Below the pieces are notes generated by a model, which did no database searches, was not told the DNA's origin, and saw nothing but the letters and a program-made list of their open reading frames with translations. A DNA stretch of 10,765 bases from Solobacterium sp. (lineage in GTDB: Bacteria > Bacillota_I > Bacilli_A > Erysipelotrichales > Erysipelotrichaceae): assembly GCA_016284975.1 (NCBI GenBank), contig JAEEPV010000031.1:1-10765 (forward strand), written 5' to 3'. Position 1 is the first letter of the stretch, and every line of letters starts with the position of its first letter. Below, piece after piece: positions 2,360-10,474 of this stretch. The translations under genes and the position numbers were made by a program.

Positions 2360-4921
2360 ATGAAAACAAGCAAATTAAGTATTGTTGGCCTGTTTTGCAT
2401 TTCCGCACTGCTGGGGCTCGCGAACTGCGCTCCTGCCGGTGGCAATGCTGGGGAAGGCAAGTTTAAAGCTGGTACCTATACAGGCAAGGCTCCGGGTAAA
2501 AACGGAGACGTGACCGTCGAAGTTACTCTGACTTCTGATGCAATCAAGGAAGTTAAGGTAACGGATCATCAGGAGACAGCAGGAATTGCTGATCCGGCAA
2601 TCGAAAAGGTTCCGGGAGAGATCGTTGAAGCACAGTCGCTCAATGTTGATCTGGTTTCCGGAGCGACCATCACATCTCAGGCAATCGTCGATGCTTCTAA
2701 AGCAGCCCTCGAGTCTGCAGGTGTAGATGTCAACACACTGGGCGATGGAGCAGCAGCTGCTTCTTCCGGGGAAAATGTTCCGGTTACTTATACAGCCGGC
2801 ACTTATACCGGAGAGAGCACTGGTTACAACGGACCGGTTAAGCTTGATGTCACATTCACAGAAGACGGCATCTCTGAAATCGCAGTTAATGAGTCTGTTG
2901 AGACAGATCATGTCGGAACAGTTGCTTATGACATTCTGTTTGATGAAATCAAGCAGGCAAACGGAAGCGGCGTTGATGTAGTTTCCGGCGCAACATTCAC
3001 TTCTCTGGCAGTTAAGAATGCTGTAAACGCTGCAGCAGAGCAGGCAAAGGCTTCTGATCTTGACGGCTTCAAGAAGAACACGGTTAAGCATGAAGCTGGT
3101 GCTCCGATCGATGAGACATTCGATGTCGTCGTAGTCGGCGCAGGCGGAGCTGGTATGGCTGCAGCAGCACAGGCAGCACAGCTTGGCAACACAGTATGTG
3201 TTATTGAGAAGAACGCTGAGATCGGCGGAAACACACTGGTTTCCGGCGGACAGTATCAGTCCGTTATGCCGTATCTCGTATGGGATCCGAAAGATCCGGA
3301 TGCAGAAACAGGTGTCGGTTATGATGGCAATACCTATAACAAGGTAAAAGAAAACATCAACACACTTGATGAGCTGCGTCTGATCGCAAACTGGTCTGAA
3401 GAACCATTTGATGAAGCTTATTACAAGGATCATGAATTTGTCGCAGGTGACACAGCTGAACTCTCCAAGCATGGTGTTCACGAAGAATATCTGCAGACAC
3501 TTAAGGATCTGAAGAAGGAGATCAATGAGTACCTCAAGTGGGCGGATGCCAAGATTAAGGCAGGCGCTAATGATGTAACACTGTTCTCCACACTCAACCT
3601 GCATATCTTCCAGACATACTATGGAGGACTTCGTCCGACAGCTGACATGTCTGAGTGGATCTATGGTGACTATGATCTCGTCAGCCAGTTCATTACAGAC
3701 GGCCAGGATCTCAAGCCTTGGCTCGAGGAACAGGGTGCGAAGTTCATCGAAGACACACAGCCGACTCTGATCGGTGCGCTCTGGTATCGTGAAAACGAAT
3801 TCGCCGGTGCTGAAATCGACGGTGTTGAATATCCGGGCCGTTGGGGAACCTACTTCATGGCTCCGTACACCACACTGACAAAGACAAGTTCCACCGCTTC
3901 TGACAACAAGGTTATGCTCCGTACAACCGCAGAGAGCCTGATCGTAGACGGCGGCAAGGTAACTGGTGTTTCCGGTAAGATGTATGACGGTACAGAAGTA
4001 ACCGTTCACGCAAACAAGGGTGTCATCCTGACAACCGGTGGATTTGCAGCAAACATTGATATGGTTCTCGAAAACAACCAGTACTGGGACAGCGCGTACC
4101 TGACCAAGAGCACCAAGACAACAAACCGTTCCTCCATGCAGGGTGATGGTATCAAGATGGGTGAAGGCGCAGGCGCTGACACAACTGGTCTGAATTTCAC
4201 ACAGCTCATGCCGATCTCCTGGGTCGACAACGGTAACCTGGCATTTGGTGCAGGAAACTATGCAGTATGGATCAACCCGACAACCGGTAAGCGTTTCGTT
4301 GATGAAACTTCTGAGCGTGACGTTCTGTCTCTGGCAGAGTTCCGCAATGGTATGGAAGTCAACGGCACAAAGGGTGTCTTTGTTGAAATCTATAACAAAG
4401 AACAGCTGATGCCTGCTCCGATGCAGCTGGCTGAAGGCGACTATGAAGGCAGATACTACAGAGTCAAGATTGCTGAACTGGGTGACCTCTTCAAGAAGAT
4501 CGGTGTTGAAGCTGATCCGGAAGTTGTCCGCAAGACAATCGAAGATTATGACGCTGCAGTTATTGCCGGCGCAAAGATTGAAGAGTTCCCGGACGTCAAG
4601 AAGACAGCTGCGAACCGTACAATCGGTAACTGTGAGAAGGATGAAAACGGTAAGTACATCGCTGATACTTATGATCTCGATGGTGCTGAGCTGACTGTTC
4701 GTCTCATGGCTCCGTCTACCCACCACACCATGGGTGGTCTCAAGGTCGATGTCGACAGACACGTTCTTGATGAAAAGGGCAATAAGATTGAAGGCCTCTA
4801 TGCGGCAGGTGAAGTTACTGGTGGTATCCACGGTGGTAACCGTCTGGGTGGTAACGCGATCGTTGAGATCTTCGTTTCCGGCCGTACCGCAGCTAAGGCT
4901 GTAACAGAAGACAACAAGTAA
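2360..4921 (+). CDS. Secreted flavinylated lipoprotein reductase (two FMN-binding domains plus fumarate-reductase-type FAD domain)
   Basis: This 853-residue lipoprotein probably acts outside the membrane, reducing an organic electron acceptor with electrons passed through covalent FMN. Residues 1-22 are a signal peptide with lipobox LANC (Cys23; Asn at -1 is unusual). Two FMN-binding domains follow, about 34-118 and 144-229, each with a flavinylation motif, DLVSGAT (97-103) and DVVSGAT (206-212), whose Thr is the FMN attachment site for an ApbE-type transferase. Residues 255-847 are a FAD_binding_2 domain: GAGGAG (260-265), Glu283 for the ribose, and a flavin-contacting C-terminus around GLYAAGEVTGG. 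Catalytic equivalents of fumarate/urocanate reductases are visible as Arg653 (SERD), His789 (HTMGG) and Arg828 (GNRLGGNA). The carboxylate-binding QxHPT motif is replaced by QLMPI (Met617), so the substrate may not be fumarate. No ApbE, NADH dehydrogenase or quinone partner lies in the window. The MerR gene and operator just upstream imply induction by a ligand. Confidence 0.92.
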   Translation: MKTSKLSIVGLFCISALLGLANCAPAGGNAGEGKFKAGTYTGKAPGKNGDVTVEVTLTSDAIKEVKVTDHQETAGIADPAIEKVPGEIVEAQSLNVDLVSGATITSQAIVDASKAALESAGVDVNTLGDGAAAASSGENVPVTYTAGTYTGESTGYNGPVKLDVTFTEDGISEIAVNESVETDHVGTVAYDILFDEIKQANGSGVDVVSGATFTSLAVKNAVNAAAEQAKASDLDGFKKNTVKHEAGAPIDETFDVVVVGAGGAGMAAAAQAAQLGNTVCVIEKNAEIGGNTLVSGGQYQSVMPYLVWDPKDPDAETGVGYDGNTYNKVKENINTLDELRLIANWSEEPFDEAYYKDHEFVAGDTAELSKHGVHEEYLQTLKDLKKEINEYLKWADAKIKAGANDVTLFSTLNLHIFQTYYGGLRPTADMSEWIYGDYDLVSQFITDGQDLKPWLEEQGAKFIEDTQPTLIGALWYRENEFAGAEIDGVEYPGRWGTYFMAPYTTLTKTSSTASDNKVMLRTTAESLIVDGGKVTGVSGKMYDGTEVTVHANKGVILTTGGFAANIDMVLENNQYWDSAYLTKSTKTTNRSSMQGDGIKMGEGAGADTTGLNFTQLMPISWVDNGNLAFGAGNYAVWINPTTGKRFVDETSERDVLSLAEFRNGMEVNGTKGVFVEIYNKEQLMPAPMQLAEGDYEGRYYRVKIAELGDLFKKIGVEADPEVVRKTIEDYDAAVIAGAKIEEFPDVKKTAANRTIGNCEKDENGKYIADTYDLDGAELTVRLMAPSTHHTMGGLKVDVDRHVLDEKGNKIEGLYAAGEVTGGIHGGNRLGGNAIVEIFVSGRTAAKAVTEDNK
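2459..3046 (+). repeat. Tandem duplication of FMN-binding domains inside the reductase gene
   Basis: Residues 34-118 and 144-229 of the reductase are two copies of the same domain. Shared landmarks occur in the same order: AGTYTG, a stretch of alternating beta residues ending in an acidic segment, then D-x-V-SGAT followed by a helix. The copies are clearly diverged at the residue level, so this is an old duplication, not a recent DNA repeat. A Ser/Ala/Gly-rich linker (about 129-141) separates them. Each copy can carry one covalent FMN. Confidence 0.8.
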
Positions 4922-8584: not shown

Positions 8585-9910
8585 TTATTTCTTAACAATT
8601 GAAATGGTGAGGGAACCGCCGTCCGTATCCATGGTGTCACTGTAGTTCTCGTCACAGAAATATCCATCCGGCAGTTTGATAATCGTGATATGATAGGGAT
8701 ATTCGGGGCCGGTGAAGACCGCAGATCCATTCGCGTCGGACTTGGCGATATTGCAGTTCATATCGGTACAGAAACCGATAACCGCATCGGCGACAGGATT
8801 GCTGTTCTGATCAGCAACCAGAACAGTATACGTATGTTCCTCGCTGGCAGACGGTGTATCAAACCCGGATACGATCGGCTCATGACTGAGAAGCTTGTCG
8901 AGATACTCGGGATACATTTCGGGGGCGGCACCTTTGATCGGATAGCAGAGAATCGTTCCGTTCTGATCCACAAAGTAAGTTGTCGGCGTGCTGGGCCATG
9001 GCAGTGCATTGTCAAGGGATTCGGTATAGGCAAGATTCCTTGCGAAACCGTCATACTCTTTGATAATGTCGATCGCCTTACTGGTCAGTTCCGCATTTTC
9101 TGCATCTGCGCAGTAAGTTACGACACTGACGTTTTTGCCCGCGTACTTCTTTGCGAGCTCGTTCATTTCCGGGAATTCACTGATGCAGGCACTGCACCAG
9201 GTTCTCCAGATATTGACCATCGTGATGTCGCTCTCTGCAAAGAGCTTCTTTGAGGAAACCGGATTGCCGTCAAGATCCGTTCCTTCGAACGAAACAACGG
9301 ATCCGATTTCCGGTGCTGTAAAAGTCGGCTGACGCTTTTTGAGTACGATGTACTCCGGGTGCATCTCCACCATTTCCATAAGCTTTCTGTACTTTTCAAG
9401 CGCCTCCGGATTCATCTTACTGAGGTTTTCCCTGATGGAGGGATACTCCAGATTGACAATACAGCTGTAGTAGTGATAACCGTCGTATTCCCCGAGATCA
9501 ATTACAGTCTTGATCGTTCCGGTATCCTGAGCCATGTGCTCGATATCCTTGTAGGTTCTGCCGCCGTTGACACCCAGAACCGAGTAGACCTGTACGATGC
9601 CTTCATTGTATTTTCTGTTCTTTTCCAGGATTTCTTCTGTCATATCCGCCTCGGTTTTGACTGAGGCGATCATCGCATCATATTCTGCTTTTTCCTCCGG
9701 GGTATGAAGGTATAGATTCAGAGATCCGTACACAACACCGGATCCGATTTCGAGCTCTCCGTAATCGCTCGGTTCATCATAATATCCGATGATATCGGTG
9801 AAGGATTCCGGCAGTTCCAGACGGAATCCGCTCTCGGGATAATCGAATTCAAGCGCTGCTTTCACAGCGGCTTCGTTCCCGGCTGTCATAATCTTTTGTT
9901 TTTCCTTCAT
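8585..9910 (-). CDS. Thioredoxin-like (TlpA/AhpC-type) protein with Cna-B-like C-terminal domain
   Basis: This 441-residue protein has three parts. Residues 1-195 are an unrecognised region rich in acidic and aromatic residues. Residues about 198-345 form a thioredoxin-fold domain of the TlpA/AhpC-TSA type: entry APEIGSVVSFEGTDLDG, active site WCSAC (Cys239 and Cys242), then cis-Pro309 in STPTTYFVDQNG. Residues about 358-441 look like a Cna-B or transthyretin-type beta domain (TYTVLVADQNSNPVADA, then DANGSAVFTG) and carry a Cys pair at 381 and 386. With CxxC and cis-Pro intact it should act as a thiol-disulfide oxidoreductase. TlpA relatives are normally exported, yet the start at 9910 has a strong GAAAGGAAGG site and the N-terminus MKEKQKIMTAGNEAAVKAAL has no hydrophobic segment. 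An ATG 61 bases upstream is out of frame. It may therefore be cytoplasmic or exported by another route. It is divergent from the leader-peptide gene. Confidence 0.85.
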   Translation of the reverse strand: MKEKQKIMTAGNEAAVKAALEFDYPESGFRLELPESFTDIIGYYDEPSDYGELEIGSGVVYGSLNLYLHTPEEKAEYDAMIASVKTEADMTEEILEKNRKYNEGIVQVYSVLGVNGGRTYKDIEHMAQDTGTIKTVIDLGEYDGYHYYSCIVNLEYPSIRENLSKMNPEALEKYRKLMEMVEMHPEYIVLKKRQPTFTAPEIGSVVSFEGTDLDGNPVSSKKLFAESDITMVNIWRTWCSACISEFPEMNELAKKYAGKNVSVVTYCADAENAELTSKAIDIIKEYDGFARNLAYTESLDNALPWPSTPTTYFVDQNGTILCYPIKGAAPEMYPEYLDKLLSHEPIVSGFDTPSASEEHTYTVLVADQNSNPVADAVIGFCTDMNCNIAKSDANGSAVFTGPEYPYHITIIKLPDGYFCDENYSDTMDTDGGSLTISIVKK

Positions 9911-10172: not shown

Positions 10173-10207
10173 TCAGCGCATCAGATGTTTTAACAGAAGG
10201 AGATTAT

Positions 10208-10474
10208 ATAGCAGACGAGAATAAGAATTCAGAAGTAAAAGAATTAAAAGATGAGACGGTGGAACAGGTATCAGGAGGCGGTCTTTTCGGTTACGATGAA
10301 GAAGTCTATTGGGAAGCAGGAATCAAACCTTCCCCAATCTGGTACAATTACGAAATCCTTGCATCACACGAATGTATCACGAAGGGCCAGGCAAATGCGG
10401 CTGTTAGTTTCTATCGAGAATATGGCAGACCTGTGAGTTCCCTGGCTGAACTCGAGGAACATTGTATTTTCTGA
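10208..10474 (+). CDS. Double-glycine leader peptide (bacteriocin-like precursor) with ATA at the start position
   Basis: This is a small peptide of 88 residues if read from ATA 10208. The first 24 residues look like a Gly-Gly leader cut by the peptidase domain of an ABC exporter: hydrophilic start ADENKNSEVK, then ELKDETVEQVSGG, matching the L-x-x-E-(L/V)-x-x-(V/I)-x-GG pattern of class II bacteriocin and related precursors. The following 64-residue core begins GLFGYDEEVYWEAGIKP, has two cysteines (residues 56 and 86), and a segment QANAAVSFYREYGRPVSSLAEL. The core does not resemble a known bacteriocin I can name. An excellent ribosome binding site, AGAAGGAG (10195-10202), sits 5 bases before ATA, which directly precedes GCA GAC GAG. 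The frame contains no ATG at all; upstream TTG codons at 10031 and 10085 are poorly placed. Either ATA initiates or the start codon was lost. No transporter or immunity gene is visible within the window. Confidence 0.6.
   Translation: MADENKNSEVKELKDETVEQVSGGGLFGYDEEVYWEAGIKPSPIWYNYEILASHECITKGQANAAVSFYREYGRPVSSLAELEEHCIF

Follow-up and report, generated by a model that had tools for sequence, protein, structure and literature searches.

A double-glycine leader peptide gene with ATA at the position of its start codon in Solobacterium sp.: a probably crippled allele of an undescribed family

Does a peptide gene whose Shine-Dalgarno sequence faces ATA still have a working start, or has that start been damaged? 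The question is raised by a short open frame near the end of the 10,765-nt stretch of Solobacterium sp. DNA analyzed here (hereafter the window). On the forward strand, the Shine-Dalgarno sequence AGAAGGAG (10195..10202) is followed by the five-base spacer ATTAT (10203-10207), by ATA (10208..10210), and by a frame that stays open until a TGA stop (10472..10474). Counted from ATA, the product has 88 residues and consists of IADENKNSEVKELKDETVEQVSGG and a 64-residue core. The first 24 codons (10208..10279) form a double-glycine leader that ends in ELKDETVEQVSGG, with the GG motif SGG, V at −4 and −7, and L at −12. The core (10280..10471) is predicted to comprise a helix, two strands, and two helices. 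ATG is absent from the whole open frame ending at TGA 10474, and re-reading confirmed every element of the layout given in the preliminary description: AGAAGGAG, five bases, ATA, a Gly-Gly leader, and no ATG. Besides its start, the frame is free of any damage.

Three other in-frame codons are candidate starts: TTG 10031, TTG 10085, and GTG 10259. By eye, TTG 10031 has no clear Shine-Dalgarno sequence, and it would add 59 residues that are absent from P0002, the sister protein described below. No protein called from this codon was listed, though the length limits of the search admitted one. GTG 10259 lies within the leader, and starting there would lose residue −12.

The lack of an ordinary start codon at the expected place might be taken to mean that no gene is present and the frame is open by chance, a reading to which we give almost no credence. 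The motif L..V[SAN]GG occurs twice in the window, in one case preceded by AAGGAG and joined to it by an open frame. This combination of AAGGAG, open frame, and GG-leader motif, found once in the window, was seen in 0 of 20 dinucleotide shuffles. Moreover, a homologue search, proposed in the preliminary description, recovered relatives that share its leader and core from the window's own genome, genus, and family; judged from these sequences, the frame is not a chance one. Among 60 genomes including the own one, two gave matches: G021 (E 4.1e-7) and the own genome, where the search found the window itself and a paralogue (G000:C334; E 4.0e-5). A profile search, with the own genome included, identified members in 5 of 70 genomes of the genus and in at least 14 of 272 genomes of the bacterial family, belonging to at least 2 of 59 genera; across the 315 genomes of the order, the matches lay in the same at least 14 genomes. 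At most 19 (family) and 16 (order) candidates per genome were scored. Protein-database searches retrieved 31 clusters (E ≤ 0.01) with a 7-sequence profile and 56 clusters (E ≤ 0.001) with a 32-sequence profile. The source names of these clusters are Solobacterium sp., Quinella sp., and an Erysipelotrichaceae bacterium; P0003 (Solobacterium sp.) has the sequence of the G021 family member.

This family is unnamed: it lies outside Pfam and NCBIfam and is not among the known bacteriocin families there. The window peptide matched no Pfam family at E ≤ 0.001 and had a single NCBIfam match, at 16.3 of 33 bits. Across 32 members the best E-values were 0.007 (Pfam) and 0.0072 (NCBIfam), which, judged as E-values, point to no convincing family. 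The earlier suggestion that the core is not a recognizable bacteriocin and that its family may be undescribed was thus borne out. In the literature, the titles and abstract openings of the papers listed gave no description of the family, and there was no pairing of "double-glycine" with "Solobacterium".

The state of the start codon in a close relative is indicated by P0002, the sole match to the 87-residue query among 5.8 billion proteins (98% identical) in a search that relied on shared five-residue words and so retrieves close relatives only. Its cluster comprises 22 member sequences and one contig of 1075 bases, and its source columns are blank, as for window-encoded proteins, which hides its origin. 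The comparison concerns the protein of the cluster representative, one of the 22 members. This protein begins MADENKNSEV..., with its initiator M aligned exactly with ATA 10208..10210, and its core differs from that of the window at two positions. Since ATG, GTG, and TTG are all rendered as M by gene callers, the codon behind this M may be any of the three; P0002 thus has a recognized start at the ATA position, with ATG the likeliest by parsimony. Because P0002 has M at this position, the window gene is most likely real and ATA a variant of its own genome. Scans of genome and viral contigs with P0002 alone found no relative, in collections that may omit records close to the genome of the window. 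Among the other cluster sequences read, M comes first in 37 of 38: in 29 of 30 from the 31-cluster search, the exception being P0026, a short piece that starts with V, and in 8 of 8 among the 37 new clusters of the 56-cluster search.

The intact genomic relatives have ordinary starts as well. The 29 match rows in 14 genomes correspond to 27 loci among the matches listed, which we sorted from the printed frames into 13 intact, 8 broken, and 5 atypical loci and the window. The intact loci (G007:C4, G007:C3, G093:C46, G093:C1, G154:C33, G154:C317, G000:C334, G000:C17, G021:C1, G134:C11, G001:C51, G135:C129, and G155:C80) start with ATG in 12 cases, the start of G007:C4 being ambiguous between GTG and ATG; ATA is used in 0 of the 13. 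At one of the broken loci (G093:C6; L017/L024), whose leader and core frames differ, ACG stands at the expected start, six bases after GGAG. We also compared the spacing with 29 other GG-peptide names (31 names minus the window and G093:C6), a set that includes other cores and some broken loci: (R)GGAG lies 6-12 nt before the start in 17 of them, and none occurs within the last 25 nt in 12. In the window, the spacing is 5 if ATA is an altered start and would have been 8 had a start codon behind ATTATATA been deleted. The spacing is in keeping with both a substitution and a three-base loss.

AUA starts are reported for infC, ccpN, and, in one lineage, citZ of Staphylococcus aureus, another species of the Bacillota, where, as in the window, AUA is faced by a good Shine-Dalgarno sequence (PMC13009471). 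According to the same report, AUA or AUU starts give about 10% of AUG reporter output, as measured for ccpN and citZ, and ccpN up to 30% (PMC13009471). The lineage limit of the citZ start is a further parallel to the window, where ATA is a candidate start; infC of the window's own genome is a contig-edge fragment. Given these values, together with AGAAGGAG at close spacing and a frame undamaged across 88 codons, AUA could be a working weak start that yields perhaps a tenth to a third of the normal output, the peptide being low but present. We regard this as unlikely, since ATA is not the start of any intact relative and the M of P0002 makes a conserved regulation improbable. As AUA gives about 10-30% of AUG in S. 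aureus, full function of the ATA allele is, by this analogy, less likely than a greatly lowered output or silence. The preliminary description had left the choice between a rare AUA start that keeps expression low and a precursor inactivated at its start. The evidence leans to the second, and the first keeps the small share of probability just given to it.

A different origin of ATA would be a base-call, assembly, or strain-mixing error, the living strain having an ordinary start. The genome is indeed a draft (378 contigs, about 70% complete), but single errors in assembled drafts are rare, and a distinct natural haplotype would be in keeping with the two other residues at which the window peptide differs from P0002. 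We consider such an error quite improbable.

Damage is frequent among the relatives. Four of the eight broken loci carry an internal stop (G133:C4, G135:C2, G135:C13, and G135:C35), three have leader and core in different frames (G093:C75, G093:C6, and G032:C217), and one has no in-frame start before the leader (G135:C20). The atypical loci show GA (G135:C85) or GE (G140:C6) in place of GG, no in-frame GG leader (G137:C44), a cut core (G134:C27), or a leader only (G124:C21). GA was not scored as damage because the peptidase LahT is reported to have cleaved two other precursors after GA and GS (PMC6363468). Stops are present in 6 of the 29 family rows; those of G093:C46 and G140:C6 are terminal, which leaves four internal ones. 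As a control, PP-binding domains from the same 14 genomes (12 of which had a match) showed an internal stop in 0 of 30 matches, a generous comparison as these domains are partly essential, many matches lie in long proteins, and stops were counted while frame breaks went unseen. The broken loci are clustered, 4 of the 8 being in the draft genome G135 and 2 in G093. The proportion of broken copies suggests that the family turns over quickly, as competition genes do. Since a form with a normal start is known and members of the family often decay, a damaged start is the favored reading: we think it probable that the window holds a GG-leader precursor allele whose start is crippled and whose expression is strongly reduced or abolished, and that it belongs to an undescribed family that decays fast.

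The leader is, by its sequence, of the double-glycine type served by C39 peptidases of ABC transporters, as the preliminary description had recognized: it has GG and hydrophobic residues at −4, −7, and −12. LahT is reported to require suitable hydrophobic residues at −4 and −7 and to tolerate little change at −12 (PMC6363468); V −4, V −7, and L −12 of the window leader fit these recognition positions. No C39 transporter is visible beside the peptide gene, where the window contig stops at 10765; the own genome has two C39 domains, both on other contigs. On one of them (G000:C300), genes for a sigma factor and for a small protein weakly matching the HlyD type precede the C39 gene, of which 166 residues are present before the contig ends, the transporter part being outside the sequence. 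The C300 peptidase is a close relative of LahT150: it matches LahT (6mpz) at E 2.3e-71 and 242 bits, with the catalytic Cys, His, and Asp aligned. Compared with NHLM transporter models, the exporter pieces gave matches below the cut-offs, for C300 over its 166 residues. The other C39 gene (G000:C17) is accompanied by a further ABC gene and by a family member. In two NHLM-type ABC proteins, L020 (G000:C17; 2174-4357) and L120 (G021:C12; 8020-10203), Asn by eye replaces the catalytic C39 Cys.

Of the 14 genomes that have family members, 10 also contain C39 domains. Among the contigs compared, G000:C17 is the only one with both. By eye, neither a family member nor a modification enzyme is present in the exporter operons of G021 (C45) and G007 (C49); that of G007 has one other GG-containing small frame (L121 10327-10656). 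Because no modification enzyme was seen in these two operons, the family cores are probably unmodified. The leaders of the LahT/AMS-PCAT system (Lachnospiraceae lah cluster) likewise have GG and hydrophobic residues at −4, −7, and −12. Unlike them, the window leader is short, with 24 residues and no Pfam or NCBIfam match to a Nif11- or nitrile hydratase-like long leader, and its core is predicted to be a folded domain. In contrast to the lah cluster, no family member or modification enzyme stands by eye beside the exporter in the two genomes. Class II bacteriocins (Bacteriocin_IIc PF10439, ComC PF03047) share the leader type, but the models match only 1 and 2 of 32 members weakly (E 0.048 and 0.035, respectively), and the core of the window family is conserved and predicted to be folded.

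In the predicted structure (mean 73.3, pTM 0.61), the leader is loose and the core folded, with block pLDDT values of 75-95 from residue 31 on. The fold has no PDB match at E ≤ 0.001. The best one, a BIR domain (E 0.65), was judged to be due to chance. Searched with a profile, the solved chains yielded four matches, the best at E 0.12.

These data suggest the following course. The gene is a real precursor gene of an undescribed double-glycine-leader miniprotein family of Solobacterium-type Erysipelotrichaceae and some other bacteria, and ATA in place of the sister's start would much reduce or abolish initiation in the own genome. When made, the precursor would bind through its leader to the C39 peptidase of a LahT-like exporter, whose gene lies on another contig of the genome, and a cut after Gly-Gly would release a folded 64-residue protein outside the cell, probably for dealings with neighboring bacteria. 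We infer for the core a role as secreted competition or signaling protein, which the many unlike, scattered, often broken copies fit. The otherwise intact gene would be as expected for a young damaged allele; its clean frame may mean that the start was altered recently or that even a low output still serves a purpose. The family would add exported, probably folded small proteins under no existing name to the double-glycine peptides of gut- and rumen-type bacteria, and the window gene exemplifies one that ordinary gene finders would miss, its start codon apparently having changed.

The relatives read lie in unlike surroundings, and by eye we observed no conserved neighborhood. In the window, a gene for a 441-residue redoxin-domain protein (8585-9910, minus strand), which by eye lacks a signal peptide, adjoins the peptide gene and points away from it. 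Farther upstream, an 818-codon open frame (2375-4831, minus strand) lies antisense to a flavoprotein gene (2360-4921) and is probably a codon-usage effect.

The sequence CGTATA occurs in 14 of 31 stretches upstream of GG-peptide genes (for instance those of G000:C334, G134:C11, and G135:C129), against a shuffle mean of 0.47 and a maximum of 3 in 500 shuffles, in a set of our own choice in which some loci are broken, some GG peptides have different cores, and one of two G093:C46b copies is uncounted. It is absent from the window's own 110 upstream bases. The pattern matched 12 times in G000, against 3 for the reversed control; of the 11 sites read, 5 stand before GG peptides and 6 before other genes. 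As the element also precedes other genes, and in G093 matched 6 times against 6 for the reversed control, it was rejected as a specific GG-peptide promoter. A broader and speculative picture is that Solobacterium-type bacteria keep a scattered arsenal of double-glycine miniproteins with one LahT-like exporter and, in part, a CGTATA-type promoter element possibly answering the exporter-side sigma factor; members would be gained and decay fast, and ATA-like start alleles would tune or silence some of them.

Other small GG-leader frames were seen in the same genomes. Three with other cores lie near one another on the minus strand of L086 (G000:C160:2500-5718), at 1968-2270, 1420-1731, and 900-1145. 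L022 (G093:C46) has, near 13496 and 13997, tandem near-identical GG-leader peptides with CxxC in the core. Small peptides with GG or GG-like leaders are also present in L021 (14149-14427 and 14573-14815) and L026 (14311-14565), and by eye their cores, with two CxxC pairs, look like zinc ribbons.
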